Assembly (NCBI GenBank): GCA_010672825.2
Contig: JAAHFU020000001.1
Coordinates: 1,364,001-1,428,000, forward strand
Reading direction: 5' to 3'
DNA: 64,000 bases
Source: Leptolyngbya sp. SIO1E4
Lineage (GTDB): Bacteria > Cyanobacteriota > Cyanobacteriia > Phormidesmidales > Phormidesmidaceae
The notes below the pieces were generated by a model. That model worked only from the letters and a program-made list of their open reading frames with translations, searched no databases and was not told the origin of the DNA. Position 1 is the stretch's first letter. The number at the start of each line of letters is the position of its first letter. Below, piece after piece: positions 34,695 to 61,895 of this stretch. Both the position numbers and the translations under genes were made by a program.

Positions 34695-37600
34695 ATGCAA
34701 ATCATGGCACACAAAACTGAGTCTATTGTCTTCATTGACGCGAGTGTTGATGCTCCTTTGCGGCTGGCGGCTGGTATTGCTCTAAACGCTGAAGTCCTAG
34801 TTTTGTCACCCGCTGAAGATGGGGTTGAACAGGTCACTGCAGCACTTGAGGAGCGTCCCAATGTTATCGAAGTTCACCTGGTTGCCCATGGTTTACCAGG
34901 GTGCCTCCATCTTGGGAATGGTCAACTGGGGCTACAAACCCTGAGCCAGTATCGTGCTCACCTCCAGAGATGGTTCATCCTGAAACAGTCTGCTGCCCTC
35001 TATATATATGGTTGTAATGTTGCGGCTGGCGATGCTGGAAGCGAGTTCTTAGCGCAGCTGCGATCGCTGACCGGAGCCAACATTGCGGCTTCTCCTCGTT
35101 TAGTGGGTCACGCTAGCCAGGGCGGTGATTGGTGCCTGGATACCGTATTGGGAGCGGTTCCTTCACGATCACTCTTAACTCAGACTGCGATCGCAACTTA
35201 TCCAGGCGTGCTGGCAACCGATGATTTTGCCAGCGCCACCAATCTAACCAATACCGATACAGGGTCTAATGCAGGCTTCACCCATGAGGCTGGAGAGCCC
35301 ATTCACGACCCGTCAGTGAGCGGTTTAAGCCCGGCTTTTCAGCAGACTCTCAACAATTCTGCCTGGTGGCAGTGGACTGCCCCTACCTCCGGAGAAGTCA
35401 CCGTTAATACCGCAGGCAGTGCCATTGATACAGTACTGGCGGTTTATGCAGGTTCAGCCGTCAACAGTCTGACGCTGGTAGGCAGCAACGATAACATCAG
35501 CCCTGGCGTCACCAGCAGCAGCGTCAACTTTACAGCCAGTGCTGGAACAACTTATTTCTTCGCTGTTGACGGCGTCGGGTCAGCACAAGGTAACATCACC
35601 ATTACCCTGGACACGCCCCCCACAATTGACGCTAATCAGCGCTTTAACGTCAGCGAAGATACCGCCGCAACGGCTGCCTTTGGCACCGTCCAAGCCAGTG
35701 AACCAGGGCTGACCTGGTCAATTTCAGGCGGAAATCCTGACAATGATGGCGATGGAATGGCCGCCTTTGCCATCAACCCTGGCACCGGTGAACTCACAGT
35801 TCAAGACGCCGATGATTTGGACTTTGAATCGTTTGATTCGTTCTACACCCTAGAGGTGACCGCCGAAGATGGCAATTTTACCGACACCGAATCCATCTTT
35901 GTTGAAGTTACCGATGCGCCTGAAGATCCAATCTTGGTGAGCCTCACCCCCAATCAAAGCATTACAGATGAAGGCACCCTGATTACCTTATCGGGGCAAA
36001 TTTTAGACCCCGATCAAGGCGAAACCCAAACCGTCACCATTGACTGGGGCGATGGCACCAATACTGTGGTGACGAGTGACGATCTGGTCGCAATCGATGC
36101 GGTGGGTAATAAAACCTTCGCTCGCAACCATACCTATCGAGATGATGGCAACTTTACAATTAACGTCACCGTTGCGGATGGAGGTGGTAACCCAGATGGT
36201 GACACCCGCACCATCACAGTTAACAATGTTGCCCCCACCATTACCCAGGGCGCTACGCTCCCCCTATCCCTCAACGAAGACTCTGCCAGTACCTTTCAGC
36301 TGTCTGCGACCGATCCCTCGACAGAAGACATTCTCACGTGGAGCGTGGCTGGGCAAGCAGCTAATGGGACAGCAAGCGTTTCTGCGACCCCCGATGGCCG
36401 GAACCAGCTCATCAATTACACGCCCAACGCCGATTTCAGCGGCGATGACAGTTTTCAAATTCAGGTCGTTGATGATGATGGTGGGGTCGATACCATTACC
36501 GTTAATGTCACGGTGGCAGCCCAGGCAGATGCTCCCACGAATCTGGCGTTGGTCACCAGTAGCCCCACTATTAATGAGGGGGAGACTCTAACACTCAGCG
36601 GCAGCTTTACCGACCCCGATGCCGGGGATACCTTTACCGTCACCATCGACTGGGGTGATGGCAGTGAACCCACGGTGCTCTCCAGCGATGAACTAACCGA
36701 AAACGCCAACGGGACTTATTCCTTCAGCGCCGATCACGATTATCTGGCCGATACCAATGGCGTTGCCACGGGGATTAGCGTCAGCGTACAAGACAGTTTT
36801 GGGGCGATCGCCAGTGCCTCCACTCCAGTCACCGTCAATAACCTGCCGCCCACGATTACCCCCGGGCCTAATACGTCTCTGGCTCTCAACGAAGATACCT
36901 CGGGCACTATCGAATTTACAGCAACTGATCCTGCAGATACTAACTTCACCTGGTCCATTGCCACTGATGGTACGAACGGGACTGCGATCGTGGAAGCAGA
37001 TCCAACTGGAGCCAATCAGGTCATTACCTATACGCCGGGTGCCAACTTCAGCGGCATTGATGAGTTTGTGGTGCAGGTGGATGATGGCGATGGGGGTATT
37101 AACACCGTCACCGTGGTGGTTGGGGTCGATCCGGTCAACGATGACCCCACAACTCTGCAGGTTACCCTGTCAGATCCTGGCCCCCTTGACGAAGGCACAG
37201 CCTTCACCCTCGACGGCAGTTTCGCAGACGTAGATCTCAACGACACCCATACCGTCACCATTGACTGGGGCGACGGCACCACAACTGTTCTGCAAGATGC
37301 TGCGCTTAACGATGACGGTCTGGGGGGGCTCTCCTTTGCCGGTGTTCCCCACACCTATGCCGATGAAGGTACCGGAACCTATACCATTACCGTCACCGCT
37401 GAAGATGCAGCTGGAGCGAGCATCTCTACCAGCCAAGAGATTGACGTCAATAATGTCGCGCCGGTCATTGTTGATCCAGATGGGGCAGATGACGGCGTCA
37501 CGACCGTCAGCGTTGCCGAAGACGACAGCCTCACCTTTAATCTAACGGCCAATGACGTCGGCACTGAAGACGATCTGACCTGGAGTGTCTCTAACCCAGG

Positions 37601-40600
37601 GAGTAACGGAACCGTCACGCTAGATCCATCGGTCACGAACGGCACGCAATCTTTTACCTATACCCCTAACCTCGACTTTGCGGGTACTGACACTTTTACG
37701 GTGCAAGTCAGTGACGGTGATGGCGGTCTCGATACCCTCGAATACACCGTGACGGTGAACGGCGATAACGATCCGCCAGAAATTGTCGTGAATCAGTTCG
37801 AGATCACCGAAGGTGAGGAACTGTTAATTGACCTCAATATCTTGGATGCGATCGATATCGAAGTCACCGATGATAACCAGATTCAATTCACCATCACGAA
37901 TCTCACCGCTGGCGATCGATTCTTAGTCTCCGGTGTCGAACAAAACACCTTTACCCGAGCCGACATTCTGGCAGGCAATGTCACCTTTGTCGATAACGGA
38001 GATGAGATTGCTCCCAGCTTCACCATTGAGGTGTCTGATGGTCTGGGCGGCACGGTTTCCCAGCTGGCTAACATTGTCAACTTCGAGACAGTCAACGACG
38101 CCCCAGAAATCATCGTTTCCACCCCCTTTACCATCGCCGAGGGGGGCACAGTTCCTATTCGTGCTCAAAACATCAGCGCGACCGATGAAGAGTCCAACGA
38201 CCCGGATCTAGAATTTACGGCCTCTGATCTGGTAGCAGGAGAATTCTTGGTCAATGGGGTCGTTAGTGACACATTTACCCTTCAGCAAATTAATCAAAAT
38301 GCGGTTCGGTTCCGCCACGACGGCACTGAAACCCCGCCTAGCTTTACCTTGACTGTCAGCGATGGCGATCAGACGAGCACCGTTGATTACGTTCCTACCT
38401 TTAGTGCAGTCAATGATGCTCCTGAGTTTCTGGCAAATACCCTCACTATCGCAGAGGGCGGGGAGGTAACCCTCACGACTGGCGACCTCAACGCCACTGA
38501 TGTGGAAACCTTGGACAACGACCTGGTGTTCTCTATTAGTGGATTGGCCGGGGGCGACTTTTTCCTCAATGGTGTCCTGCTAGACACCGCGACTGAAACC
38601 TTCACCTTAGAAGACATCCTCTTAGGAAATGTCACCTTCACGCACGATGGGTCAGAAACGTCGCCGACCTACACGGTAACGGTGACCGATGACGGCACCC
38701 CTGCCAGATCAGCTAGTAGCGTAGTCGAAGCTGATTTCACCTCTGAAAATGACGCGCCCGAAATTGATGTGATAAATGATCCGCCCTTCACAGTGACTGA
38801 GGGTGGTATCCGCTTAATCACGACAGCTGCAATTAATGCGATCGATGAAGACACCCCTCAAGCTGAGCTGGAATTTACTGTAACGGATGTAGAAGGCGGC
38901 TTCTTTGCCTTAGCCACTGACACATCAGACCCTATCAATGCGTTTACCTGGCAAGACGTTAATCTCCGCCGCATTGTCTTTGTCCATGATGGCAGCGCCA
39001 CCGTCCCCAGCTATACCCTCACGGTTGAGGATGGTGATGGTGGCTCAGATACTCAAGCCTTCACAGCAGCGTTGGTTCCCGTTAATGACTTACCCACGAT
39101 TACGGTGAACACCCTCAGCCTGACGGAAGGCGAAACCCTCACCCTCGATAGCAGCAACTTGCTGGCCACCGATGAAGAATCAGACCCCGCTGGCCTCACC
39201 TACACCATCACAGCAGTAGATAACGGCACCTTCCAGCTCGATGGCGCAACCGACCTCGGGGTAAACGATTCCTTCACCCAGCAAGATGTCCTCGATGGCC
39301 GCATCACCTTTGTCCACGATGGGACGAATGATGCCCCCTCCTACACGCTGGAGCTGCAGGATACGCAGGTTGGTGGTGTAACCAACACCCTCACGAGCGA
39401 GGGAACGGTTGAGTTTACGGCGGTGAATGATGCCCCCGTTGTCACAGCCACCCCCTTCACCATTGCCGAAGGCGGCACCGTTAACATTACCGCTGCTGAA
39501 CTCAGTGCCACCGATGAAGAAACCACTGACCCAGCCTTGCTGGTCTACACCGTCGATACCGTCACCAACGGGAGCTTCCAAGTCAATGGCGCCGAGGCCA
39601 ACAGCTTTACCCAGGCAGATATTGCCGCTAACCTCGTCACCTTTGTCCATGACGGCAGTGAAGAAGCCCCTAGCTATAGCCTCACAGTCAGCGATAGTGA
39701 TTCTCCTGCGGCAGAAACTGAGGTCAGCGTCGACCTGGGATTCACCAACCTCAATGACTTGCCAGAACTTCTCCGCAATGAGCTGGCCATCAACGAAGGT
39801 CAGACCGTTCTCTTCACCACTGACAATCTGAGTGCCACTGACCTGGAGACCCTAGATCCGGACCTTGAGTTCTCCATTACCAACATCACCAATGGCGCTT
39901 TTCTGGTGAATGGTGCCACCTTTGACACGACCGCAACCTTCACGCTGCTCGACATCATTGAAGGGCGCGTCAGCTTCCAGCAGGATGCCTCGAATAACTT
40001 ACCCAGCTACGATGTCGCTGTCTCCGATGGCACAGATACCGTTGGCCCAGAAGCAGCCACCGTCGACTTCACAGCCTTGAATGATGACCCCGTCATCGAT
40101 GTGGTAGCGGATCCTCCCTTCACCGTTGATGAAGGCGGAACCGTGTTGCTCACTAACACCAATATCAATGCCTTCGACGAAGCTGGTGAAACCCCCACAG
40201 CAGACCTGCAATATAGCGTCTCTAACGTCTTAGGCGGATTCTTTGCCACCTCGACCGCTAACTCCACTCCCATCACCTCTTTTAGCCAAGACGACATCGA
40301 CCAAGGTCGCATCGTATTCGTCCATGCGGGCGGAAACGTTCCCCCGAGCTATACCCTCACAGTTGAGGACAGTGACGGCGGGACGGCTACTCAGGACTTT
40401 ATCGCAGGGCTGAATCCCACCAATGATGGCCCTTCCATTCTGGTGAACACCCTCAGCCTGACGGAAGGCGAAACCCTCACCCTCGATAGCAGCAACTTGC
40501 TGGCCACCGATGAAGAATCAGACCCCTCTGGCCTCACCTACACCATCACAGCAGTAGATAACGGCACCTTCCAACTCGATGGCGCAACCGACCTCGGGGT

Positions 40601-43600
40601 AAACGATTCCTTCACCCAGCAAGATGTCCTTGATGGCCGCATCACCTTTGTCCACGATGGGACGAATGATGCACCCACTTACACACTGACAGTCACTGAC
40701 ACAGCAGTCGGAGCCACACCAGCCATTACCTCAGACCCCCTTGTGGGAACGGTTGAGTTTACGGCGGTGAATGATGCCCCCGTTGTCACAGCCACCCCCT
40801 TCACCATTGCCGAAGGCGGCACCGTTAACATTACCGCTGCTGAACTCAGTGCCACCGATGAAGAAACCACTGACCCAGCCTTGCTGGTCTACACCGTCGA
40901 TACCGTCACCAACGGGAGCTTCCAAGTCAATGGCGCCGAGGCCAACAGCTTTACCCAGGCAGATATTGCCGCTAACCTCGTCACCTTTGTCCATGACGGC
41001 AGTGAAGAAGCCCCTAGCTATAGCCTCACAGTCAGCGATAGTGATTCTCCTGCGGCAGAAACTGAGGTCAGCGTCGACCTGGGATTCACCAACCTCAATG
41101 ACTTGCCAGAACTTCTCCGCAATGAGCTGGCCATCAACGAAGGTCAGACCGTTCTCTTCACCACTGACAATCTGAGTGCCACTGACCTGGAGACCCTAGA
41201 TCCGGACCTTGAGTTCTCCATTACCAACATCACCAATGGCGCTTTTCTGGTGAATGGTGCCACCTTTGACACGACCGCAACCTTCACGCTGCTCGACATC
41301 ATTGAAGGGCGCGTCAGCTTCCAGCAGGATGCCTCGAATAACTTACCCAGCTACGATGTCGCTGTCTCCGATGGCACAGATACCGTTGGCCCAGAAGCAG
41401 CCACCGTCGACTTCACAGCCTTGAATGATGACCCCGTCATCGATGTGGTAGCGGATCCTCCCTTCACCGTTGATGAAGGCGGAACCGTGTTGCTCACTAA
41501 CACCAATATCAATGCCTTCGACGAAGCTGGTGAAACCCCCACAGCAGACCTGCAATATAGCGTCTCTAACGTCTTAGGCGGATTCTTTGCCACCTCGACC
41601 GCTAACTCCACTCCCATCACCTCTTTTAGCCAAGACGACATCGACCAAGGTCGCATCGTATTCGTCCATGCGGGCGGAAACGTTCCCCCGAGCTATACCC
41701 TCACAGTTGAGGACAGTGACGGCGGGACGGCTACTCAGGACTTTATCGCAGGGCTGAATCCCACCAATGATGGCCCTTCCATTCTGGTGAACACCCTCAG
41801 CCTGACGGAAGGCGAAACCCTCACCCTCGATAGCAGCAACTTGCTGGCCACCGATGAAGAATCAGACCCCTCTGGCCTCACCTACACCATCACAGCAGTA
41901 GATAACGGCACCTTCCAACTCGATGGCGCAACCGACCTCGGGGTAAACGATTCCTTCACCCAGCAAGATGTCCTTGATGGCCGCATCACCTTTGTCCACG
42001 ATGGGACGAATGATGCACCCACTTACACACTGACAGTCACTGACACAGCAGTCGGAGCCACACCAGCCATTACCTCAGACCCCCTTGTGGGAACGGTTGA
42101 GTTTACGGCGGTGAATGATGCCCCCGTTGTCACAGCCACCCCCTTCACCATTGCCGAAGGCGGCACCGTTAACATTACCGCTGCTGAACTCAGTGCCACC
42201 GATGAAGAAACCACTGACCCAGCCTTGCTGGTCTACACCGTCGATACCGTCACCAACGGGAGCTTCCAAGTCAATGGCGCCGAGGCCAACAGCTTTACCC
42301 AGGCAGATATTGCCGCTAACCTCGTCACCTTTGTCCATGACGGCAGTGAAGAAGCCCCTAGCTATAGCCTCACAGTCAGCGATAGTGATTCTCCTGCGGC
42401 AGAAACTGAGGTCAGCGTCGACCTGGGATTCACCAACCTCAATGACTTGCCAGAACTTCTCCGCAATGAGCTGGCCATCAACGAAGGTCAGACCGTTCTC
42501 TTCACCACTGACAATCTGAGTGCCACTGACCTGGAGACCCTAGATCCGGACCTTGAGTTCTCCATTACCAACATCACCAATGGCGCTTTTCTGGTGAATG
42601 GTGCCACCTTTGACACGACCGCAACCTTCACGCTGCTCGACATCATTGAAGGGCGCGTCAGCTTCCAGCAGGATGCCTCGAATAACTTACCCAGCTACGA
42701 TGTCGCTGTCTCCGATGGCACAGATACCGTTGGCCCAGAAGCAGCCACCGTCGACTTCACAGCCTTGAATGATGACCCCGTCATCGATGTGGTAGCGGAT
42801 CCTCCCTTCACCGTTGATGAAGGCGGAACCGTGTTGCTCACTAACACCAATATCAATGCCTTCGACGAAGCTGGTGAAACCCCCACAGCAGACCTGCAAT
42901 ATAGCGTCTCTAACGTCTTAGGCGGATTCTTTGCCACCTCGACCGCTAACTCCACTCCCATCACCTCTTTTAGCCAAGACGACATCGACCAAGGTCGCAT
43001 CGTATTCGTCCATGCGGGCGGAAACGTTCCCCCGAGCTATACCCTCACAGTTGAGGACAGTGACGGCGGGACGGCTACTCAGGACTTTATCGCAGGGCTG
43101 AATCCCACCAATGATGGCCCTTCCATTCTGGTGAACACCCTCAGCCTGACGGAAGGCGAAACCCTCACCCTCGATAGCAGCAACTTGCTGGCCACCGATG
43201 AAGAATCAGACCCCTCTGGCCTCACCTACACCATCACAGCAGTAGATAACGGCACCTTCCAGCTCAACGGTGCTGATACCACTACGTTTACTCAGCAGGA
43301 TGTCCTCGATGGACTCGTGACGTTTGTCCATGATGGGACGGATAATGCTCCTACTTACACGCTGACAGTCACCGATACAGCAGTCGGGGCCACACCAGCC
43401 ATTACCTCAGACCCCCTTGTGGGAATGGTCGTCGACTTTACGGTAATTAATGATACCCCTGAACTGACCATCAACTTCCCGGTCATTGATGAAGGAGCAA
43501 CCGTCCCAATTACCACGGCTGAGCTCACGGCCACTGATGAAGAAAGTGACGCGACTCAGTTGGTCTACACCATAGATAATTCTTCAAATGGTGAGTTTCG

Positions 43601-45524: not shown

Positions 45525-45560
45525 GCTTTAGAGCGATTGATGACCTGAGTTCAGCTATTG

Positions 45561-45602
45561 CCAGAACCCTGCCAAAGCTCGCACGCATTGACAGGGTTCT
45601 GG
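45561..45602 (+). terminator. Stem-loop after giant gene 1
   Basis: CCAGAACCCTG at 45561-45571 and CAGGGTTCTGG at 45592-45602 are perfect 11-bp inverted repeats with a 20-nt loop, 37 bp after the stop codon. There is no U-tract, so it may terminate or protect the 3' end of the transcript. Confidence 0.6.
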
Positions 45603-46543
45603 TAACAGAGGATCGACTGTTTTGAATGTAGATAGGGAGGATAACAGCCATCACTCTATTGTGAATAGCTTCTGATAGGAGTTTCTGGATACCCAGTAAT
45701 TTTCTTGCCTTTTATTGGGGCAATGACATTCAAATTTTAAAGTGAATTCGTGGTCACGATACGTAGCATATCGCCATACTGGCACTTGACCAAATTGACT
45801 GGAGATCGCACCCGACGACCCAATCTACAGAGACTCTCAATCAACCTCTATTTATCTGCAAAGGAGAACGATCATTTCCTTGAAAGGCGATGTTTTCTAT
45901 CAAGGAAATTTTGAGTCAAGCGCGATCAGCACTGCCGACTTCCCACTAGTTCCATTCGGGGTGCATACTTTTATTAGCCCAGAATCAGAAGCTTTGCCTG
46001 AGCTATAGATGCTTACTCCATAAAGCTGACGCCTTAGAGAACAGCAAAATTTCCTGCAGGGATCTCTTACAAATATTGTTCTAACCGTATCTAAAAACAT
46101 ATTTAACTAATTCATACTCTAGAGATTCTTGCATCTATAATTCTCACAACGGCTCCGAAGAGATTCATTCTAATAGAGCCAGCAAAATCCGATTACATCT
46201 AAATTGTAAATTTTTGTATCAGTTTCAAGCTTCTTTTGAGTTGCTATTATCCTTCTAGTATTCCTGTAGGTTTTAAATTGGCTTGTTATTGGTCAACGGG
46301 TGCACCTCATATTTAGATAGTTAATTATCTATCAACCATCTAAATAACATGCTTTGTTAAGGCTCAAAATATGAGATAAATTAAGATGTCATTTTGGCTC
46401 CGTGACATCCATATGACTGTACGCAGAAAGCGCCCCTGCTTCACCATGGCTTATGCCTGTTCATTGTGAAGATTAAAGGTCGTCAAAGGAGCTAACGCGA
46501 GGATTACAGGTACATCATTCAGTCGACATTAAGAGCTAATTCC
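45603..46543. other. Non-coding region upstream of giant gene 2
   Basis: This 0.94-kb A+T-rich stretch has no convincing gene. Its last ~340 bp share three ordered sequence blocks with the region before giant gene 3: one near 46205 (TGTAAATTTTTGT), one near 46376-46400 (AAGATGxCATTTT), and a leader block at ~46471-46547 around GAGCTAACGCGAG. This suggests a duplicated promoter and leader. Confidence 0.6.
46311..46345. promoter_or_regulatory. Hyphenated palindrome upstream of giant gene 2
   Basis: ATTTAGATAGTT (46311-46322) and AACCATCTAAAT (46334-46345) are inverted repeats matching at 11 of 12 positions around an 11-nt spacer, about 200 bp before the start codon. An operator is plausible. 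It is not obviously conserved before giant gene 3, which weakens the case. Confidence 0.35.
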
Positions 46544-49500
46544 ATGGCAGCACCCCAAATTGACAGCAATAGCCTCACCATTTTTGAAGGTCAAATCATC
46601 ACAATATCGACTGACAATCTTGAGGCCAGCGCACCTGGCATCCCCCCTGGCGACATTATCTTTACTATTAATTCGCCGCTTTTCGGAGGTTTCTTTCTAA
46701 ACGGCACAGAAACGAGTGAGTTTAGTCAGGAGGATATCTTTCGGGGCGACGTACAGTTTCGTCACGATGGTTCTAACAGTGCTCCGCAATATACCGTCAC
46801 AGCCAGGGTAGGCGATGAAGCTGCTGAAGCTAGCGAGCCTATGGTGAGTTTTACGCCGTTTAATGACGGGCCGCGTTTCTTGAATGCTGCTCTCTCTATT
46901 AGTGAGGGCGAAACGGTGATTCTGACCCGTGACAACCTGCTAACGACTGATGAGGAGGGGGAATCCGCGCCCGAGGAACTCACCTACGAAATTCTCAGCG
47001 TTACCAACGGTGAATTTCAGCGGGTTGGCGACGGCACGCCTCTCGGGGAAGGGGCGACTTTTACCCAAGCGGACATCGATGCTGAAGCCATTCAATTTAT
47101 ACATGATGGTAGTGAAACTAGCCCTAGCTATCGCTTGCAGGTGACTGATAGTGGAATTCCTGAGTCCCCTACGCCCAAGTCAGTTCGTCGTACTGTATTC
47201 CCAAACTTCACCCCTGTGAATGATCCGCCCGTCGCCGAAGATGACCTCGCTTTCCCCGGCGATGAAGATACTCTCATTACTGGCAATGTCTTAACCAACG
47301 CCACTGACCCAGAAGACGACCCGCTCACGGCAACCGTGGTCACTGATGTCACCAATGGCACGCTCACGCTGAACCCCGATGGCAGCTTTGAGTACCTTCC
47401 CAACGAAAACTTCAACGGTACCGATACCTTTACCTATGAAGTCAGTGACGGCAATGGGGGCACTGATCAAGCTACCGTTACTCTGACTGTGGCAGCGGTG
47501 AATGATCCACCCGTCGCCGAAGATGACCTTGCTTTCCCTGGCGATGAAGATACTCCCATTACTGGCAATGTCTTAGCCAATGCCACTGACCCAGAAGGTG
47601 ACACGCTCACGGCAACCGTGGTCACTGATGTCACCAATGGCACGCTCACGCTGAACCCCGATGGCAGCTTTGAGTACCTTCCCAACGAAAACTTCAACGG
47701 TACCGATACCTTTACCTATGAAGTCAGTGACGGCAATGGGGGCACTGACCAAGCTACCGTTACTCTGACTGTCAACCCCATCAACGACCCGCCCGTCGCC
47801 GAAGATGACCTCGCTTTCCCCGGCGATGAAGATACTCTCATTACTGGCAATGTCTTAACCAACGCCACTGACCCAGAAGACGACCCGCTCACGGCAACCG
47901 TGGTCACTGATGTCACCAATGGCACGCTCACGCTGAACCCCGATGGCAGTTTTGAGTACCTTCCCAACGAAAACTTCAACGGTACCGATACCTTTACCTA
48001 TGAAGTCAGTGACGGCAATGGGGGCACTGATCAAGCTACCGTTACTCTGACTGTGGCAGCGGTGAATGATCCACCCGTCGCCGAAGATGACCTTGCTTTC
48101 CCTGGCGATGAAGATACTCCCATTACTGGCAATGTCTTAGCCAATGCCACTGACCCAGAAGGTGACACGCTCACGGCAACCGTGGTCACTGATGTCACCA
48201 ATGGCACGCTCACGCTGAACCCCGATGGCAGTTTTGAGTACCTTCCCAACGAAAACTTCAACGGTACCGATACCTTTACCTATGAAGTCAGTGACGGCAA
48301 TGGGGGCACTGACCAAGCTACCGTTACTCTGACTGTCAACCCCATCAACGACCCGCCCGTCGCCGAAGATGACCTCGCTTTCCCCGGCGATGAAGATACT
48401 CTCATTACTGGCAATGTCTTAACCAACGCCACTGACCCAGAAGACGACCCGCTCACGGCAACCGTGGTCACTGATGTCACCAATGGCACGCTCACGCTGA
48501 ACCCCGATGGCAGCTTTGAGTACCTTCCCAACGAAAACTTCAACGGTACCGATACCTTTACCTATGAAGTCAGTGACGGCAATGGGGGCACTGATCAAGC
48601 TACCGTTACTCTGACTGTGGCAGCGGTGAATGATGACCCGGCTTTCATCAGCAATACGTTGACGATTGATGAGGGTGCAACGGTTAGCTTTACGGCGGAT
48701 AATCTAGCTGCTGACGACATCGATAGCCTGCGGGGTCGTCTAACATTTGAAATCTCAGAGGTAGTGGGGGGCACCTTCTTTCTGAATGGTCAGCCGTTGG
48801 GGGCGGGTGAGACCTTTACCACCGCATCAATCTCCTTTGGTGAGTTGACCTTTACCGATGATGGGGACGAAGCGCCCCCCAGCTACTCAGTCACGGTTCG
48901 AGATCCTGAGGGCGGCTTCGTTAGTGGGGCAGCAGAGGTCTTCTTTACGACGGTGAATGATGCTCCAGTTTTGGTCACAAATACCTTTGTCATTAGCGAG
49001 GGGCAACGGCTCGCGCTCAATGAAGGGGGCAATGTTAACCTACTGGCCGAAGATGATACTGCCTCAGATGCTGAACTGATCTACAGCGTCAGCAATGTAG
49101 TCGGCGGTGGCTTTTTCGACCTCAATGCAGCCCCCATTGAAAGCTTTACGCAAGCGCAGTTGAATAATGGGGATGTTTTCTTCGTCCATAACGATGAGGA
49201 AATCGCTCCCAGCTTTGATATCGCTGTGAGTGATGGGGAAGCCAGTACAGACCCGACGCCTGGCGTCATCGAGTTTATCTCAGTCAACGATGCCCCCACC
49301 CTAGAAACCGTGCAGCTGAGCGTGACAGAAGGGGCAACCATTCCTCTCACCCCAGACAATTTTGTCGGTTCAGACCCTGATACTGAGGCAGCTAACCTCA
49401 CTTTCGAGGTGAGCGACTTAGCCGGGGGGCAATTCAACCTCTTTGAAGGCGGCGTGGTCGCAGCAGAAGCCATCACCAGCTTTAGCCAAAGTCAGCTCAT

Positions 49501-51046
49501 TGCGGGTCAGATACAGTTCGTTGACGATGGCGACCAACTGCCCCCTAGCTTTAACCTCACTCTCACTGATGGAGAATTCACCACCGCACCGGTGCCCGTG
49601 ACCATCACCGAGTTCATCAATGTGAATGACCCACCCACCGCCGTCGATGATAGTGGCGAAGGATTCACCACCAGTGAAGATGTCGTGCTCACCACTCCAG
49701 ATATCCTGGAAAATGATGGCGATGACGACCCTGAAGACACCATCAGCATTAGTCAAATCGCAGGCATCGATGTCTCTCAGGGGGAGATTACCATCCCCTC
49801 CGGTGCACTCGTCAGTGTGGCCGAGGATGGACGCTTGAACTACAGCCCCAATGGGGCTTTTGATGACCTCGCCCCAGGCGAAAGTCGGCTCGATACTTTT
49901 GAATACACCCTCAGCGATAGCGCGGGCGCAACCGATACCGCCACTGTCGAGATTGTCGTCACTGGTGTCAACGATGCTCCGACCCTGGCAGCCAACACCT
50001 TATCCCTCTTCAAAGGGCAAACCGTGGTGATTTCTGCCAACAACCTCCTGGTCAATGACCCGGATACTCCCCTCAATGAGCAAGTCTTCACCCTTTCTGA
50101 AGTCACTGGCGGGGAGTTTCAACTCAATGGTGAAGTCACCACGACCTTTAGCCAGCAAGATATTGCTCAAGGCCTCGTCAGCTTTATCCATGATGGCGGA
50201 GAGGCTCCACCCAGCTATGAGGTCAGTGTGAGTGACGGGTTAGCCACGACTGACCCCGCAGCGGTGACCATCGACACCTTTATTCCCGTGAGCGATATCC
50301 GAGGGGTGTTTGACTACGAGCAGTTCCTGCGCTTCCAGGTGCCCACGGCGGAGGTAGCCGTACCGACGGATGCAGTTGATGGTCTCCTGTTGGCTCAGTT
50401 CTTTGATGAATCCTTCTATCTCAATCAGAATCCAGATGTGGCCGATGCTGTCAATGCTGGGGTCTTCTCCTCGGGCTATCAGCATTTTGTTCTCTCAGGC
50501 TTAGCCGAGGGGCGGAACCCCAGCCTGCTCTACGATGAGGCTTTTTACTTAGCCAATAATGAAGATGTGGCGCAGGCAGTGACCAGTGGCGTCTTCACCA
50601 GTGGCCTAGTTCACTTTCTGCAGGCGGGTCATGAAGAGGGGCGTGACCCGAGCGCGCTCTTTAGACAGCGAGATTATCTGACCAACAATGCCGATGTCGA
50701 AACGGCAATTGAGAGTGGAGCTGTTCAGAGTGGCTTCGACCATTTCATTAACTTTGGCGCTAATGAAGACCGCTTACCCCCTCTCTACTTGTACAACGAG
50801 GAGTTTTATCTCTCCTCCAATCCTGACGTCGCGGCAGCCGTGCAGACGGGCTTCTTTACCGATGGGTTTGCGCATTTTGCCAGCATTGGTCAAAGCGAGG
50901 GGCGGAATCCCAGTTCTCTCTTTGACCAGGCCGACTATCTAGCCGCCAACCCTGACATTGCTGCGGCTGTCGCCGGGGGAACCTTTAGCAGTGGTTTTCA
51001 GCACTATGTCGCCTTTGGTCGCTTTGAAGAGCGCGCTGTCTTTTAG
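46544..51046 (+). CDS. giant cadherin/VCBS-like repeat surface protein, 1500 aa
   Basis: This is the second member of the giant-protein family. It starts MAAPQIDSNSLTIFEGQ directly with a CSPG-like domain; DUF4347 and a signal peptide are absent. Two CSPG-like domains are followed by five near-identical 94-residue VCBS/cadherin-like domains (VNDPPVAEDDLAFPGDEDT through TVTLTV, residues ~225-695). More CSPG-like domains follow, including FEISEVVGGTFFLNGQPLG, and a VCBS-like domain (~1025-1140). The last ~245 residues are the five-repeat YL..NPDV module ending FGRFEERAVF. The protein is acidic with abundant Asp/Asn turns typical of calcium-binding cadherin-like folds. From about residue 896 it is almost identical to the third giant protein. 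An adhesin or matrix role is inferred. Confidence 0.88.
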   Translation: MAAPQIDSNSLTIFEGQIITISTDNLEASAPGIPPGDIIFTINSPLFGGFFLNGTETSEFSQEDIFRGDVQFRHDGSNSAPQYTVTARVGDEAAEASEPMVSFTPFNDGPRFLNAALSISEGETVILTRDNLLTTDEEGESAPEELTYEILSVTNGEFQRVGDGTPLGEGATFTQADIDAEAIQFIHDGSETSPSYRLQVTDSGIPESPTPKSVRRTVFPNFTPVNDPPVAEDDLAFPGDEDTLITGNVLTNATDPEDDPLTATVVTDVTNGTLTLNPDGSFEYLPNENFNGTDTFTYEVSDGNGGTDQATVTLTVAAVNDPPVAEDDLAFPGDEDTPITGNVLANATDPEGDTLTATVVTDVTNGTLTLNPDGSFEYLPNENFNGTDTFTYEVSDGNGGTDQATVTLTVNPINDPPVAEDDLAFPGDEDTLITGNVLTNATDPEDDPLTATVVTDVTNGTLTLNPDGSFEYLPNENFNGTDTFTYEVSDGNGGTDQATVTLTVAAVNDPPVAEDDLAFPGDEDTPITGNVLANATDPEGDTLTATVVTDVTNGTLTLNPDGSFEYLPNENFNGTDTFTYEVSDGNGGTDQATVTLTVNPINDPPVAEDDLAFPGDEDTLITGNVLTNATDPEDDPLTATVVTDVTNGTLTLNPDGSFEYLPNENFNGTDTFTYEVSDGNGGTDQATVTLTVAAVNDDPAFISNTLTIDEGATVSFTADNLAADDIDSLRGRLTFEISEVVGGTFFLNGQPLGAGETFTTASISFGELTFTDDGDEAPPSYSVTVRDPEGGFVSGAAEVFFTTVNDAPVLVTNTFVISEGQRLALNEGGNVNLLAEDDTASDAELIYSVSNVVGGGFFDLNAAPIESFTQAQLNNGDVFFVHNDEEIAPSFDIAVSDGEASTDPTPGVIEFISVNDAPTLETVQLSVTEGATIPLTPDNFVGSDPDTEAANLTFEVSDLAGGQFNLFEGGVVAAEAITSFSQSQLIAGQIQFVDDGDQLPPSFNLTLTDGEFTTAPVPVTITEFINVNDPPTAVDDSGEGFTTSEDVVLTTPDILENDGDDDPEDTISISQIAGIDVSQGEITIPSGALVSVAEDGRLNYSPNGAFDDLAPGESRLDTFEYTLSDSAGATDTATVEIVVTGVNDAPTLAANTLSLFKGQTVVISANNLLVNDPDTPLNEQVFTLSEVTGGEFQLNGEVTTTFSQQDIAQGLVSFIHDGGEAPPSYEVSVSDGLATTDPAAVTIDTFIPVSDIRGVFDYEQFLRFQVPTAEVAVPTDAVDGLLLAQFFDESFYLNQNPDVADAVNAGVFSSGYQHFVLSGLAEGRNPSLLYDEAFYLANNEDVAQAVTSGVFTSGLVHFLQAGHEEGRDPSALFRQRDYLTNNADVETAIESGAVQSGFDHFINFGANEDRLPPLYLYNEEFYLSSNPDVAAAVQTGFFTDGFAHFASIGQSEGRNPSSLFDQADYLAANPDIAAAVAGGTFSSGFQHYVAFGRFEERAVF
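47216..48625 (+). repeat. Five-unit 282-bp tandem array in giant gene 2
   Basis: Five in-frame 282-bp units (94 codons) start at 47216, 47498, 47780, 48062 and 48344. They alternate between two subtypes, B-A-B-A-B: B has DTLITGNVLTNATDPEDDP and A has DTPITGNVLANATDPEGDT. Units of the same subtype are nearly identical at DNA level, so the duplicated segment was probably a 564-bp A+B dimer. Confidence 0.95.
49229..51030 (+). repeat. 3' segment nearly identical between giant genes 2 and 3
   Basis: This 1.8-kb stretch matches 54913-56714 in giant gene 3 at a constant offset of 5684 bp with only scattered differences. The clearest is an 18-nt patch (49337-49354) that encodes TIPLTP here and AQTLSV there. 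Further clusters of differences occur within the C-terminal repeats near 50560-50600 and 50664-50690. Confidence 0.9.
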
Positions 51047-51077
51047 CAATTTGAGGTACCTATTGTCTGCGTGCAGT

Positions 51078-51130
51078 CAAGGTCAGAAGCCTTCTAAAGG
51101 TGTGACATCTTTGGAAACGCTCTGACCTTG
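51078..51130 (+). terminator. Stem-loop after giant gene 2
   Basis: CAAGGTCAGA (51078-51087) and TCTGACCTTG (51121-51130) are perfect 10-bp inverted repeats, starting 32 bp after the stop codon, with a 33-nt loop. There is no U-tract. The position parallels the stem-loop after giant gene 1. Confidence 0.5.
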
Positions 51131-51407
51131 GGGATTCCGAAAATGAGGCGGTGGTGATAGTAGACTTATGTCGCTGTCAGGGACTTGCTATTTGAGTTGC
51201 TAGGAAGCGCTAAATGCTAGTGACCCAGACCTGAAAAAGCAATCCTTAAACCTGAGACTGGTGTCACGATCGCCCTTCAAACAAACTTTGCAAGAATGGC
51301 GCACTCGCCTGTTATTGATCGCAACTGACTACTGAGTAAATGGGGAACAAGGATGATGACGACTCGTCTGTAATTAAGACAGATTTTCTAACAACCATCA
51401 TGGTGTC

Positions 51408-51429
51408 GCTAAGGGCGATCGCCCTTAGC
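51408..51429. repeat. 22-bp perfect palindrome centred on a HIP1 site
   Basis: The HIP1 octamer GCGATCGC is extended on both sides (GCTAAGG to the left, CCTTAGC to the right), giving a perfect 22-bp palindrome. HIP1 octamers are frequent in this DNA, but such long symmetry is unusual. Confidence 0.7.
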
Positions 51430-51606
51430 CAGATAGACTCGATCTAATATTCTGTTGAGGATCATTAGCGACTACCGTGAATAATAGCTTTGCCCAATGG
51501 CTAGTCGTGGCCAGCCACGAAAAGAACTGCCGCGATCTCAATCAAATATCCTAAGCATTTGCCCCCTGTAACTGGGCGCTTTGAGCTATCTGGCCGGGCT
51601 TGAACG

Positions 51607-51633
51607 AGCTGTCTTCTCGGCAAGAAGACAGCT
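51607..51633. other. Perfect 11-bp hairpin upstream of giant gene 3
   Basis: AGCTGTCTTCT (51607-51617) and AGAAGACAGCT (51623-51633) flank a 5-nt loop, CGGCA. The hairpin sits in the middle of the intergenic region with no U-tract. It could be part of a small RNA or a leftover terminator. Confidence 0.5.
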
Positions 51634-52191
51634 AATGAGCCCTGACTTAACCTGGGCTAACTGGATGAATTTTCTACCCGCCCTGACTTTGCCAACCCGC
51701 GAGTTAAAGGCATTTATAGAAGGTTATTCCGACAGAAACAGGCAGCCAGGTAACTGCCAATGCCTCCATCAAAGTGGCAACTGCTATCACTCTCGGATTG
51801 AGAGCGGAGTCTAGAAATAGACTAGCTTTGCACTGTAAATTTTTGTGTCGTTAAAGCTATTTTTCTGAGGCCTATTTTCTGAGTAGCTACTATCCTTTCT
51901 AGTGTTTACAGAAAAACGCGCTTGTATGGCGTTGTCCATGGATTGCGATCGCCCTTTCATTCGATCAATCATTGGGAAAATATGTCTCTATCAAAACTTA
52001 AAGATGATATAAAATAAGATGCCATTTTAGCTCTCAGGCATCTATCTCTACCATTGTTTACACATTAAAAAAGCACCCTGGCCTCGCTAACACGGATGCT
52101 CATTCGTGTTGGAAATTAAAGGGTGATAAAGGGGCTAGCGCGAGAGTTACAGTCACACGGTTCTTCAGTTGAAAATTAAAGAGTTAATTCC

Positions 52192-55100
52192 ATGGCAGCA
52201 CCTCAATTCATCAGCAATCTTCTCACTATTGTTGAGGGGCAAACGATTACCCTCTCAGCTGACAACCTTGAAGCCAGCGCTGAAGCCGCTGCTAGCGACA
52301 TTATCTTCACGATTAATTCACTGCAAGGCGGGGCCTTTGTCCTGAATGATGTAGAGGTGACTGAGTTCAGCCAGGAAGATGTCTTTGGGGGGGCTGTTCA
52401 GTTTCGCCACGATGGCTTGAACAGTGCTCCTGCATACACGGTTACAGCTAGGGTGGGTGAAGAGGTCTCTGAAGCCAGTACGCCGATGGTAACCTTTACG
52501 CCGTTTAATGATGCGCCCATCTTTGCGATCAATGCCCTCGCTATCAGTGAGGGAGAAACGGTTACCCTGACCGGCGAAAACTTGCAAACAACCGATGAGG
52601 AGTCTGCACCAGAGGCCCTCACCTATGAAATTATTAGCGTTGCTAGTGGGACCTTTCAACGGGTGGCCGGGGAGGAGACAACCCCTTTAGGAACGGGTGC
52701 AACCTTCACCCAAGCAGAAGTCAACGCTGGGGCTATTCAATTTCAACACAACGGTAGCGAAATCGCGCCCAGCTACCGTCTGCGAGTCTTAGATAGTGGA
52801 ATTCCTGAAGATCCGACACCTAAAGGCACTACCCGTGACGTCATCACGACCTTCACCCCCATCAATGATGCCCCAACACTGACGGTTAACACCCTAACGT
52901 TGAATGAGGGCGATACCGTTGTCTTGACGAGTGACAACCTGGCAGCAACGGATGTTGAAAATAACGATGCGGAGCTGCTGTTCACGATTACGGCGGTTTC
53001 TGGGGGGCGCTTTGAACGGCTCGATGAATTTGGCAATGTTGTAGACGTTCTGGCTTCTCCTGAGACTGAGCCCATTGCCTTCAGCCAGAATGAGATCTTT
53101 TTGCAGCGGGTTCGCTTCGTCAACGACCCGGCTACCGATGTGCCGCCTGCCTACACTGTGCAAGTGAGCGATCTGGGGGATCCGCCTCTAACCAATACCA
53201 ATAGCGGTGAAGCAACGGTGGGCTTTACTGCCGTCAACGATCTGCCGGTATTGACAACGCTATCTTTGGTGATCGGAGATGGGCAACTGGTGCCTCTCAC
53301 CAGTGAGATTTTGAATGTTGTCGATGAAGAAACGCCGCCAGAAAGTCTCCAGTATCAAGTGACCGGTGTTGAAAACGGTCGATTTGTGTTGCTCGCAGAT
53401 GGTTCGACCGTCGAAACTTTTACCCAAGGCGATATTAATGCGGGTAACGTCATTGGCTTTGAGCAGAACGGTGTGATTGCGGCACCAGCCTTTAGCCTGA
53501 CAGTGACTGATGGCGAAAATTCAGTCGTTGTCAATAGTGGTGATGGCATCACGTTTCAGCCTGTCAATGATGCACCCGTGGTAGAAGTCAGCACCTTGAC
53601 CCTTGAAGAAGGCGGCAGCGTGGTGCTGAGCAGTGCAGATAACTTGCGGGCGATCGACGCTGAAACGCCTCCTGATGGCCTGCGCTACACCGTTACGATT
53701 ACGAATGCTGATCCAGCGAAACCAGACACGTTTACAGTCGCTGGAGAAGTGTTCGCCGGGCCAGAAGTTACCTTTACCCAAGCTCAGGTCGATGCGGGGC
53801 TGGTTAGCTTTAACCATGGAGGCTCAGACACTGCCCCTAACTTGACAGTGACGGTCACGGATACCTTTAATCCAGACTTTGGCGAGCCACTGACGGTGCC
53901 CGTCCCCTTGGAAGTCAACTTCACGGCTTTCAATGATGTGCCGGTGGTGGTGGTTAACCGGTTAGAGATTGGTGAAGGGGGAACTGTCATCCTCAATGCC
54001 AACCCCGACGCATTGAATCTGGTCACGACCGATGAAGAATCCCCGGCTGAAGCGTTGACATACACACTGGATTCCTCAGTCAATGGAGACTTTCAGCGCT
54101 TTGATCCAGTACAAGGCGTGGCGACAGAAACCTTGGTGGTGGGCAGCACCTTTACCCAAGCTGACGTTGATGCTGGCACGATTCAATTTGTTCACAATGG
54201 CGGTGAAGAAGCCCCTAGCTACTCCTTAACCGTCACGGATACTGCCACCACTCCTGATGGTCAGCCCAATAGTGTGATGACTATCGTAGAAATCCCTGAG
54301 GGGGGCTTTACCAATGTCAATGATGACCCGGTGCTTTCGGTCAACACGCTGGCCGTTACAGAAGGGAGCACAGTCACGTTGGGAGTGGAAAATTTGGCCG
54401 CGACGGATGTAGATAGTGCAGACAGTCGTCTAGCGTTTGAGATCTCAGAGGTAGTGGGGGGGACCTTCTTCCTGAATGGTCAGCCGTTGGGGGCGGGCGA
54501 GACGTTCGCGATCTCGGCGATTTCTTTTGGGCAGCTGACCTTTACCGATGATGGAGATGAAGTATCCCCGAGCTACTCTGTAACGGTTCGAGACCCTGAG
54601 GGTGGTGCATCCCCTGCCGTGGCCGCAGAGATCGTCTTTACGAACGTGAATGATGCCCCGGTTTTGGTGACCAATAGTTTCACTATTAGCGAAGGGCAAC
54701 TGCTGACTCTAGAGGCTGTGAACCTGGCAGCAACGGACGATGAAACCCCAGCAACCGCCTTAACTTACAGCGTCAGCAATGTGGTCGGCGGTGGCTTCTT
54801 TGACTTCAATGCAACCCCAGTTGAGAGCTTTACGCAAGCGCAGATCAATAACGGAGAGATCCTCTTCCAACATGATGGAGGAGAAGCAGCGCCCAGCTTT
54901 GATATCACCGTGAGCGATGGGGAAGCTAGTACAGACCCGACGCCTGGCGTCATCGAGTTTATCTCAGTCAACGATGCCCCCACCCTAGAAACCGTGCAGC
55001 TGAGCGTGACAGAAGGGGCAGCCCAGACTTTAAGTGTGGACAATTTTGTCGGTTCAGACCCTGATACTGAGGCAGCTAACCTCACTTTCGAGGTGAGCGA

Positions 55101-56733
55101 CTTAGCCGGGGGGCAATTCAACCTCTTTGAAGGCGGCGTGGTCGCAGCAGAAGCCATCACCAGCTTTAGCCAAAGTCAGCTCATTGCGGGTCAGATACAG
55201 TTCGTTGACGATGGCGACCAACTGCCCCCTAGCTTTAACCTCACTCTCACTGATGGAGAATTCACCACCGCACCGGTGCCCGTGACCATCACCGAGTTCA
55301 TCAATGTGAATGACCCACCCACCGCCGTCGATGATAGTGGCGAAGGATTCACCACCAGCGAAGATGCCCTGCTCACCACTCCAGATATCCTGGAAAATGA
55401 TGGCGATGACGACCCTGAAGACACCATCAGCATTAGTCAAATCGCAGGCATCGATGTCTCTCAAGGGGAGATTACAGTCCCCTCCGGTGCACTCGTCAGT
55501 GTGGCCGAGGATGGACGCTTGAACTACAACCCCAATGGGGCCTTTGATGACCTCGCCCCAGGCGAAAGTCGGCTCGATACTTTTGAATACACCCTCAGCG
55601 ATAGCGCGGGCGCAACCGATACCGCCACTGTCGAGATTGTCGTCACCGGTGTCAACGATGCTCCGACCCTGGCAGCCAACACCTTATCCCTCTTCAAAGG
55701 GCAAACCGTGGTGATTTCTGCCAACAACCTCCTGGTCAATGACCCGGATACTCCCCTCAATGAGCAAGTCTTCACCCTTTCTGAAGTCACTGGCGGGGAG
55801 TTTCAACTCAATGGTGAAGTCACCACGACCTTTAGCCAGCAAGATATTGCTCAAGGCCTCGTCAGCTTTATCCATGATGGCGGAGAAGCTCCACCCAGCT
55901 ATGAGGTCAGTGTGAGTGATGGGTTAGCCACGACTGACCCCGCAGCGGTGACCATCGACACCTTCATTCCCGTGAGCGATATCCGAGGGGTGTTTGACTA
56001 CGAGCAGTTCCTGCGCTTCCAAGTGCCCACGGCGGAGGTAGCCGTACCGACGGATGCAGTTGATGGTCTCCTGTTGGCTCAGTTCTTTGATGAATCCTTC
56101 TATCTCAATCAGAATCCAGATGTGGCCGATGCTGTCAATGCTGGGGTTTTCTCCTCGGGCTATCAGCATTTTGTTCTCTCAGGCTTAGCTGAGGGGCGGA
56201 ACCCCAGCCTGCTCTACGATGAGGCTTTTTATCTAAATAACAACCCCGACGTGGCGCAGGCAGTGGCCAGTGGCGTCTTCACCAGTGGCCTGGTTCACTT
56301 TCTGCAGGTGGGTCATGAAGAGGGGCGTGACCCCAGTGCGCTCTTTAGCCAAACGGACTATCTGATCAACAATACCGATGTCGTAACGGCAATTGAGAGT
56401 GGAACCGTTCAGAGTGGCTTCGACCATTTCATTAACTTTGGCGCTAATGAAGACCGCCTACCCCCTCTCTACTTGTACAACGAGGAGTTTTATCTCTCCT
56501 CCAATCCTGACGTCGCGGCAGCCGTGCAGACGGGCTTCTTTACCGATGGGTTTGCACATTTTGCCAGCATCGGTCAAAGCGAGGGGCGGAATCCCAGTTC
56601 TCTCTTTGACCAGGCCGACTATCTAGCCGCCAATCCTGATATTGCTGCGGCTGTCGCCGGGGGAACCTTTAGCAGTGGTTTTCAGCACTATGTCGCCTTT
56701 GGTCGCTTTGAAGAACGTCAAGTGTTTATCTAA
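52192..56733 (+). CDS. giant cadherin/CSPG-like repeat surface protein, 1513 aa
   Basis: This is the third family member and a duplicate of giant gene 2. It starts MAAPQFISNLLTIVEGQ, aligning with the neighbour's N-terminus, and continues with about nine CSPG-like domains (opening patterns LTLNEGDTV, LTLEEGGSV, LAVTEGSTV). It lacks the five VCBS-like units of gene 2, showing domain exchange between the two. A VCBS-like domain (~1030-1150) and the five-repeat YL..NPDV module (~1267-1513) close the protein, which ends FGRFEERQVFI. No signal peptide is visible; export through a type I system recognising the C-terminus is an inference. Each giant gene appears to be transcribed alone. Confidence 0.88.
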   Translation: MAAPQFISNLLTIVEGQTITLSADNLEASAEAAASDIIFTINSLQGGAFVLNDVEVTEFSQEDVFGGAVQFRHDGLNSAPAYTVTARVGEEVSEASTPMVTFTPFNDAPIFAINALAISEGETVTLTGENLQTTDEESAPEALTYEIISVASGTFQRVAGEETTPLGTGATFTQAEVNAGAIQFQHNGSEIAPSYRLRVLDSGIPEDPTPKGTTRDVITTFTPINDAPTLTVNTLTLNEGDTVVLTSDNLAATDVENNDAELLFTITAVSGGRFERLDEFGNVVDVLASPETEPIAFSQNEIFLQRVRFVNDPATDVPPAYTVQVSDLGDPPLTNTNSGEATVGFTAVNDLPVLTTLSLVIGDGQLVPLTSEILNVVDEETPPESLQYQVTGVENGRFVLLADGSTVETFTQGDINAGNVIGFEQNGVIAAPAFSLTVTDGENSVVVNSGDGITFQPVNDAPVVEVSTLTLEEGGSVVLSSADNLRAIDAETPPDGLRYTVTITNADPAKPDTFTVAGEVFAGPEVTFTQAQVDAGLVSFNHGGSDTAPNLTVTVTDTFNPDFGEPLTVPVPLEVNFTAFNDVPVVVVNRLEIGEGGTVILNANPDALNLVTTDEESPAEALTYTLDSSVNGDFQRFDPVQGVATETLVVGSTFTQADVDAGTIQFVHNGGEEAPSYSLTVTDTATTPDGQPNSVMTIVEIPEGGFTNVNDDPVLSVNTLAVTEGSTVTLGVENLAATDVDSADSRLAFEISEVVGGTFFLNGQPLGAGETFAISAISFGQLTFTDDGDEVSPSYSVTVRDPEGGASPAVAAEIVFTNVNDAPVLVTNSFTISEGQLLTLEAVNLAATDDETPATALTYSVSNVVGGGFFDFNATPVESFTQAQINNGEILFQHDGGEAAPSFDITVSDGEASTDPTPGVIEFISVNDAPTLETVQLSVTEGAAQTLSVDNFVGSDPDTEAANLTFEVSDLAGGQFNLFEGGVVAAEAITSFSQSQLIAGQIQFVDDGDQLPPSFNLTLTDGEFTTAPVPVTITEFINVNDPPTAVDDSGEGFTTSEDALLTTPDILENDGDDDPEDTISISQIAGIDVSQGEITVPSGALVSVAEDGRLNYNPNGAFDDLAPGESRLDTFEYTLSDSAGATDTATVEIVVTGVNDAPTLAANTLSLFKGQTVVISANNLLVNDPDTPLNEQVFTLSEVTGGEFQLNGEVTTTFSQQDIAQGLVSFIHDGGEAPPSYEVSVSDGLATTDPAAVTIDTFIPVSDIRGVFDYEQFLRFQVPTAEVAVPTDAVDGLLLAQFFDESFYLNQNPDVADAVNAGVFSSGYQHFVLSGLAEGRNPSLLYDEAFYLNNNPDVAQAVASGVFTSGLVHFLQVGHEEGRDPSALFSQTDYLINNTDVVTAIESGTVQSGFDHFINFGANEDRLPPLYLYNEEFYLSSNPDVAAAVQTGFFTDGFAHFASIGQSEGRNPSSLFDQADYLAANPDIAAAVAGGTFSSGFQHYVAFGRFEERQVFI
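54913..56714 (+). repeat. 3' segment nearly identical between giant genes 3 and 2
   Basis: This is the counterpart of 49229-51030. The identity spans three or four stalk domains plus the whole C-terminal module and fades only in the last few codons, where this copy ends RQVFI and the other RAVF. Confidence 0.9.
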
Positions 56734-61416: not shown

Positions 61417-61895
61417 GCTTGATGCCAATTTTCAGAACTTTGGGTGCAGGCAGTCACAAATAATCTGATACCCACACAACAGACGTCTAAGCTTTTAGCC
61501 TAGAAAGTTCTGGATGGAGAATGGGGATCAATCACACCTAATGCAATGGCAAGTAATGCAAGCATAAATACTGTAATCTTTAGCAACACAAGCTTGAAAA
61601 GCCCGGTCTGCAATAAAAATATGTTTAGGAGGAAAAATCTTTGTCTTTGTCGTTTTACACAGTCCGTATTTAAGCGTTTTGATGTTACCTCGCGGCGAAG
61701 ATTTAGAGAAATATACTGACAAAAGAGCGCTGCACTGTCTGTCGGATTGTCTGTCGGCGAACATTCAATTTTCTGAGAGACCCGGTTTATAGAGGAATAA
61801 CTTTGCTCTTTCTTGATCTGCAGCTTTGAGGCACGGTCTGCAAATATCTTAGAAGACTGTATGAATCATTAACCCGTAGACTGGGTGATGACGCA
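61417..61895. other. Intergenic region between divergent genes
   Basis: This 479-bp gap separates the cyclase gene and the amidase gene, which are divergent. A 78-codon reverse frame (61528-61764) is cysteine-rich and unrecognised, without a clear ribosome-binding site, and is not called. No repeat or RNA gene was seen. Confidence 0.4.

Follow-up and report, generated by a model that had tools for sequence, protein, structure and literature searches.

Three giant genes lying consecutively on the + strand of the window (the whole 64,000-nt stretch of DNA analysed here, G000:C1:1364001-1428000 of an 8.2-Mb genome) encode proteins, g1 to g3, that all end in the same five-unit module, which is predicted to be helical and also ends other, unrelated proteins of this genome and its relatives. 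We tentatively propose, with somewhat less than even confidence, that these proteins are exported and anchored to envelope polysaccharide by the module, the export signal possibly lying within it. ORFs and profile searches agree with the original prediction on the gene order, the gene lengths and the common C-terminal module (Table 1).

Table 1. Features of the three-gene cluster, in window coordinates
Feature	Position	Strand	Description
g1	34695..45524	+	3609 aa; DUF4347 + PKD/Big + 20 Cadherin_3 stretches + C-terminal module
DUF4347 domain of g1	34725..35213	+	starts at residue 11
g1 super-repeat region	38970..43681	+	cadherin-like block recurring every 448 aa; neighbouring copies share 94% DNA identity
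C-terminal module of g1	44781..45521	+	units from 44880; reaches stop codon
Gap before g2	45525..46543	.	1019 bp, A+T-rich; last ~190 bp like gap before g3 (66%)
g2	46544..51046	+	1500 aa; Cadherin_3/Big_9 domains + module
g2 Big_9/tandem-95 repeats	47216..48634	+	five, near-identical, 282 nt (94 aa) each
C-terminal module of g2	50303..51043	+	units from 50402
Gap before g3	51047..52191	.	1145 bp
g3	52192..56733	+	1513 aa; Cadherin_3 domains + module; by sequence, tandem duplicate of g2
C-terminal module of g3	55987..56730	+	units from 56086; AlphaFold2 model m31a703dccfdf

Domains and ancestry of the three genes

To describe the parts of g1-g3 that precede the module, we scanned the proteins against Pfam and NCBIfam profiles. 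DUF4347 (PF14252) matched g1 with 165 bits (cut-off 24.6) and was absent from g2 and g3 in the Pfam scan, and the RTX family HemolysinCabind had no Pfam match in any of the three. The tandem-95 profile NF012211 (cut-off 90 bits) was passed by g1 (134) and g2 (484), g3 remaining below it with 38.8 bits; the BapA/Bap/LapF profile NF045619 gave 167.8 bits for g2, below its cut-off of 180, and was not listed for g1 and g3. Cysteine is missing from g2 and g3 and occurs three times in g1.

The genes had been described as differing in their N-terminal domain sets, which is true of g1, with its DUF4347 domain, PKD domain and 20 Cadherin_3 stretches, but not of g2 against g3, which are 70% identical across their first ~620 nt. 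These two genes also share 92% DNA identity across 2.3 kb at their ends and 66% identity in the ~190 bp upstream (E 4e-8; local score 65, where 200 shuffles reached no more than 29). Because starts, ends and upstream DNA are alike, we consider g2 and g3, on these alignments, to be tandem duplicates; further up, their upstream DNA holds two more alike blocks of 30-33 bp.

Each gene does have its own long upstream region (1254, 1019 and 1145 bp for g1, g2 and g3), with a G+C content of 0.40-0.45 in the gaps against 0.53-0.54 in the genes. An RNA element in the long gaps was considered and rejected, as an Rfam search gave no match at the gathering score. The largest ORF in the gap before g2 has 66 aa, and both promoter-like sites (10 against 17.0 in shuffles) and terminator-like sites (11 against 15.8) were rarer in the long gaps than in shuffled sequences. 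Just 3' of g1, an imperfect 54-nt inverted repeat (window positions 45555-45608) is a possible terminator.

Architecture and predicted fold of the C-terminal module

The module of g1-g3 comprises ~247 residues, namely a lead-in of ~33 residues and five units of 41-44 aa, and leaves 0, 0 and 1 residues before the stop codon, respectively. All three copies matched one profile, built from these same three, with E values of 5e-150 to 6e-157. Relatives were collected as described below and aligned; of 72 module rows, L100 and L114 were left out of alignment A2. Unit order proved to be fixed: for 338 of 346 units, the nearest relative in another protein stood at the same position (1-5), and mean identity was 0.55 between same-position units of different proteins against 0.49 among the units within one protein. 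Because units match by position across proteins, the five-unit block appears to have been inherited whole and then fused to different cargos.

None of the libraries searched gives this repeat family a convincing name, and our searches returned no PDB match for it. DUF5338 (PF17273) reached exactly its cut-off on the g2 module (25.9 bits), with a best stretch of 17 residues and no significant stretch, scored 19.9 bits on the g3 module, below the cut-off, and did not match the g1 module; the NCBIfam matches of the module were far below their cut-offs, and neither these nor DUF5338 appeared when the full proteins were scanned. Searching PDB sequences with the module profile gave nothing at E<=1, and a 70-row profile reached a best E of 0.13. 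Among the matches listed in open-licence literature on DUF4347, cyanobacterial type I secretion, C-terminal tags, S-layer anchoring and HesF, no title or abstract described the repeat.

Structure prediction, one of the checks named in advance for the module, gave a confident result: the AlphaFold2 model (70 relatives) has a mean pLDDT of 96.6 and is all-helical, with three short helices per unit. Foldseek found no significant PDB match for it (best E 4.6), and VIA-align found none among the 6 chains compared. Against viral models, a giant-virus glycosyltransferase came first (E 7e-5, TM 0.19) and was the sole hit at E<=0.001. A second model, built from N-terminal arrays of other cyanobacteria (five sequences), showed the same helix pattern with a pLDDT of 82.4 and likewise had no PDB match in Foldseek (best E 2.3).

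Distribution of the module

Searching this genome with the module profile returned 13 places in 12 ORFs at E<1e-40, of which ten are intact proteins with a terminal module, one is a fragment (L048) and one carries a non-terminal copy (L053). The fragment, a module-only ORF of 227 aa (L048 7397-8080; G000:C4, ~902 kb), lies directly 3' of transposase remnants as judged by eye, and a mobile element has apparently separated its module from the former cargo. Across the order, 12 of 63 genomes matched at E<=1e-10; at E<1e-40 we retained 76 ORFs from 9 genomes belonging to 3 of the 14 genera searched, setting aside partial matches at two contig ends (G014:C212 and C393) and 8 ORFs with E above 1e-40, and fetching weaker partial matches of the profile only in part. 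Of these ORFs, 17 were counted in Oscillatoria sp. CS-180. The module is thus spread genome-wide and over several genera, and the term "locus-specific family" used earlier has to be dropped. Phages yielded 1 record.

The distance from module to stop codon is at most 14 residues in 73 of the 76 ORFs and at most 3 in 61. The non-terminal modules of L053, L106 and L113 are followed by 153-391 residues. We rejected the idea that an RTX domain stands behind all three, as the profile scan matched only L106, and that below the cut-off (21.1 against 23 bits); the ends of L053 and L113 had no RTX match and look type-I-like by eye.

Gene neighbourhoods were compared, as had been suggested. In six other genomes, a gene resembling g2/g3 occurs together with a giant one; the window ORFs outside the cluster gave only three weak blastp pairs (27-43% identity) there. 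The orthologous giant genes at L058/L059 (G032:C1 2.41-2.44 Mb) are split into several ORFs, through frameshifts or assembly errors.

Cargo, composition and export signals

For the cargo we took the 59 of 76 proteins that had both ends present, carried the module terminally and had 40 or more residues of cargo in front of it, and scanned their cargo parts, cut at 1000 residues, against Pfam. Within the 25 of 43 families covered, the most frequent were Cadherin_4 (14), Big_9 (10), DUF4347 (9), Cadherin_3 (8), FG-GAP (8), RTX (4) and legume lectin (4), and subtilase, trypsin, CBM6, VWD, 5'-nucleotidase and ubiquitin occurred singly; all are outward-facing types bar the one ubiquitin domain. The latter belongs to a module protein (L086 3514-7311; G022:C62) that opens with a ubiquitin-family domain (PF00240, 54.6 against 25.4 bits), which is unusual on an apparently exported bacterial protein.

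By our own heuristic (not SignalP), 45 of the 287 ORFs in the neighbourhood have a signal-peptide-like N-terminus, but only 1 of the 61 module proteins does; this is L087, for which the assumed start may lie too far upstream, and none of g1-g3 has one. Transmembrane-like stretches occurred in 10 of the 61 against 116 of the 287. Module proteins have a median of 0 cysteines and a pI of 4.05-4.93, inside or at the edge of the range of 3.2-4.9 reported for 90% of putative RTX proteins (PMC3034196). The type I signal of RTX proteins is described there as uncleaved, C-terminal and ~60 residues long (PMC3034196). RTX motifs themselves, at least 3 by regular expression, were present in only 4 of 73 proteins with the C-terminal module.

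We further read the ends of DUF4347 proteins (56 ORFs read of 85 places, with 15 open-ended ones set aside). Readable ends in module genomes comprised 9 with the module, 5 with RTX, 1 with both and 7 with neither, and on the basis of this tally module and RTX ends mostly exclude each other; this genome has the module on g1 and L051 and RTX on L197. Non-module genomes gave 0 module, 4 RTX, 0 both and 15 neither. As 15 of those 19 ends are of neither type, we rejected the idea that DUF4347 proteins generally end in RTX where they do not end in the module.

From the cargo, the lack of Sec signals, the acidity and the strict terminal position, we infer that the module proteins are exported. On the same grounds, the earlier view, in which exported repeat proteins have a C-terminal module in common while their N-terminal parts are exchangeable, is broadly supported. 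Terminal position, cargo and composition would fit Sec-independent, probably type I, export. A cytoplasmic location, with the module acting as the kind of scaffold that glycosyltransferases carry, has in its favour the want of classical signal peptides and the units found on glycosyltransferases and a methyltransferase, and is highly improbable in view of the cadherin, lectin, trypsin, subtilase, CBM6 and VWD cargo and the acidic, Cys-poor, RTX-like composition.

Search for exporter genes

This genome has a HlyB-type gene over the cut-off (C2:54459-56546) and, beside it, a HlyD-type gene (C2:52928-54304) with 191 bits, under the cut-off of 209. The HlyB profile matched 39/39 family genomes and 14/14 controls (over the cut-off in 34 and 1, respectively), and the HlyD profile matched 38/39 family genomes (over the cut-off in 25). 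Since the HlyB profile rings in family genomes and controls alike, exporter co-occurrence cannot discriminate, and we rejected it as proof. Linkage to exporter genes was likewise rejected as a rule, none being found beside the window cluster: a profile scan assigned the nine flanking window ORFs to housekeeping or signalling (e.g. CTP synthase, MscS, GGDEF, amidase), with no exporter genes and no other type I or polysaccharide genes among them. Type I or polysaccharide genes were also missing from the 57 ORFs round nine other module loci, within 25 of 141 families. One HlyB/HlyD pair lies ~7 kb from a module gene (G014:C117).

The repeat unit outside the five-unit family

At E<=1e-10, matches were found phylum-wide in 30 of 292 genomes and 22 of 116 genera, and, judging by this distribution and the arrays below, the unit predates the C-terminal tag and is more widely spread. 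We read array positions in ORFs from 20 regions of other families plus 13 loci. Other cyanobacteria have C-terminal arrays (e.g. L223, L224, L225, L231 and L235), internal arrays and, frequently, N-terminal arrays, which mostly start at residue 6-8 and usually have four units (e.g. L229, L234, L236 and L170); some of the proteins with N-terminal arrays have no RTX motif. Unit order is not kept outside the five-unit family. We also considered unit 5 as the export signal, using 61 arrays of at least 3 units (57 outside the family and 4 atypical family ORFs, with duplicates L163-L169 left out), and rejected it: unit-5-like units stand last in 5 of 13 C-terminal arrays and in 11 of 34 N-terminal ones and so are not specific to the former.

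Two further arrangements were seen. A second unit subtype stands in about six copies, C-terminal after RTX-like repeats as judged by eye, in L118, L120 and L122. At L236 (1018-8178; G161:C1 2.96 Mb), a four-unit N-terminal array is found in each of six short paralogous ORFs in tandem; in one of these that was scanned, the array is followed by an RTX match below the threshold (17.4 bits, cut-off 23).

On plasmids, 76 records match the unit, and we opened loci from 21 of them, hand-picked and without a baseline, two of which (L157 and L255) are R. rubrum plasmids of like size. C-terminal arrays were found there in two M10 proteins, in L156, L162 and L254, and in small two-unit ORFs; arrays were also N-terminal or internal in glycosyltransferases, a methyltransferase and RTX proteins. 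In the Pseudoroseomonas M10 proteins, six units end 2-3 residues from the stop codon and follow a partial Peptidase_M10_C match (35-103/104 of 193). In alphaproteobacteria the unit is carried by RTX/M10 proteins as well as by glycosyltransferases, frequently at polysaccharide loci. In this hand-picked set, again without a baseline, polysaccharide genes lie in or beside 13 of 20 annotated plasmid stretches (L157, L158, L161, L243-L248, L250, L252, L253 and L256), and type I exporter genes in 4 of the 20 (L157, L245, L250 and L251). Three alphaproteobacterial polysaccharide loci contain ORFs of 130-151 aa that are largely two units (L244 3935-4378, L252 3920-4324 and L256 3887-4279).

The presence of the module mainly on unrelated intracellular proteins had been named as evidence that would refute the earlier view. 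Such an association exists in part for the single unit, on glycosyltransferases and methyltransferases of other bacteria, but, bar the one ubiquitin domain, was not found for the five-unit module in the 25 of 43 cargo families. Module proteins and these enzymes (of alphaproteobacteria and, weakly and by fold, of giant viruses) are alike in having the same unit by sequence, the enzymes being encoded at plasmid loci; the enzymes differ in that they are taken as cytoplasmic, the array is not C-terminal and unit order is not conserved.

Comparison with known surface proteins and sorting tags

PEP-CTERM, LPXTG and the T9SS CTD are known C-terminal sorting tags. The module resembles them as one C-terminal tag placed on many unrelated cargos across a genome; it differs in being helical and ~215-250 residues long, and no such Pfam or NCBIfam match was listed for it. 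Proteins g1-g3 share with RTX/type I adhesins and S-layer proteins the lack of a Sec signal, an acidic and Cys-poor composition and giant repetitive stalks, and g1 shares its DUF4347 cargo with the RTX-ended L197 of the same genome; unlike RTX/type I proteins, they have no RTX match, a helical module replaces the beta-roll end, and no exporter genes adjoin. With BapA/Bap/LapF adhesins and tandem-95 proteins they share tandem Big_9/cadherin domains, g1 and g2 passing the tandem-95 cut-off, although the C-terminus of g1-g3 is different and g2 is below the cut-off of NF045619.

The S-layer protein RsaA of Caulobacter is exported by the type I route. Its N-terminal domain, like the module, is all-helical and holds a surface protein to envelope polysaccharide, as the module may do; it lies at the opposite end of the protein and is absent from the PDB matches of the module in the Foldseek output, the one comparison made. 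Binding of this helical domain to O-antigen has been reported (PMC6978808). Together with the glycan associations of the unit, the RsaA precedent suggests that the array itself may bind polysaccharide.

Proposed role of the module

In the explanation that we favour, g1-g3 would be surface or matrix proteins whose long stalks are cadherin-like and whose export bypasses the Sec pathway; the most likely route is a type I (HlyB/HlyD-type) exporter with its genes at another place in the genome. The module would form a rigid five-unit helical end, serving as a standard C-terminal cassette of this cyanobacterial lineage, and its most likely task would be to fix the protein to the sheath or envelope polysaccharide of the same cell. 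As the module extends to the very end of the protein, it probably covers an export signal as well: a C-terminal type I signal, if present, would lie in or under it. Several observations count against this explanation, namely the N-terminal arrays elsewhere, the lack of exporter linkage here, the negative unit-5 result, the weak RTX support behind non-terminal modules, and the DUF4347 ends of non-module genomes, which are most often of neither type. The fullest version of it seems to us unlikely: a lineage-wide Sec-independent C-terminal sorting cassette, one fixed five-unit helical tag of undescribed fold, recruited from the glycan-associated repeat of glycosyltransferases, which would both direct dozens of unrelated proteins to the outside and attach them to the polysaccharide of the same cell.

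Signalling export could instead be the main role of the module, which would then be a folded domain at the C-terminus that is recognised by a type I or other Sec-independent exporter and does no anchoring. Its strict terminal position in 73 of 76 ORFs, the lack of Sec signals by our heuristic and the M10 proteins, which carry the array where the type I signal normally lies (PMC3034196), all agree with such a role. We nevertheless hold it to be unlikely, given that arrays are N-terminal in other cyanobacteria and occur on glycosyltransferases, that unit 5 has no specificity for C-terminal arrays, that L106 has the module plus a weak RTX match behind it, and that five rigid units are large compared with a signal of ~60 residues.

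Also unlikely, and slightly more so, is a protein-protein assembly domain, whose terminal arrays would pack together or with an outer-membrane partner into a matrix or S-layer. The confidently modelled array with its fixed order and the small, largely two-unit ORFs of the bacterial polysaccharide loci (L244, L252 and L256) are what such a domain would lead one to expect, but the unit also occurs on single enzymes and glycosyltransferases of unrelated bacteria, and no recurrent neighbour family stood out round nine loci of this genome (25 of 141 families).

How exoproteins without a signal leave cyanobacteria is poorly understood, as has been stated for HesF of the Anabaena exoproteome, a protein in which no signal peptide was found (PMC4390845), and the export part of our favoured explanation bears on such proteins. 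An unnamed helical tag on ten intact proteins of one genome is a concrete candidate for exporting such proteins, and, if this is true, proteins without other clues could be labelled as probably exported. Carried by glycosyltransferases and by apparently exported proteins alike, the unit would connect the synthesis of polysaccharide with display at the surface.

Two observations concern the rest of the window. PAS/GAF/GGDEF proteins are encoded at positions 23070-25052 and 58153-61428, of which one lies 1.4 kb beyond the 3' end of the cluster, and from these neighbours a control of the surface proteins by c-di-GMP is possible. The heptamer GGCAAAA is repeated five times in tandem at positions 8354-8388.
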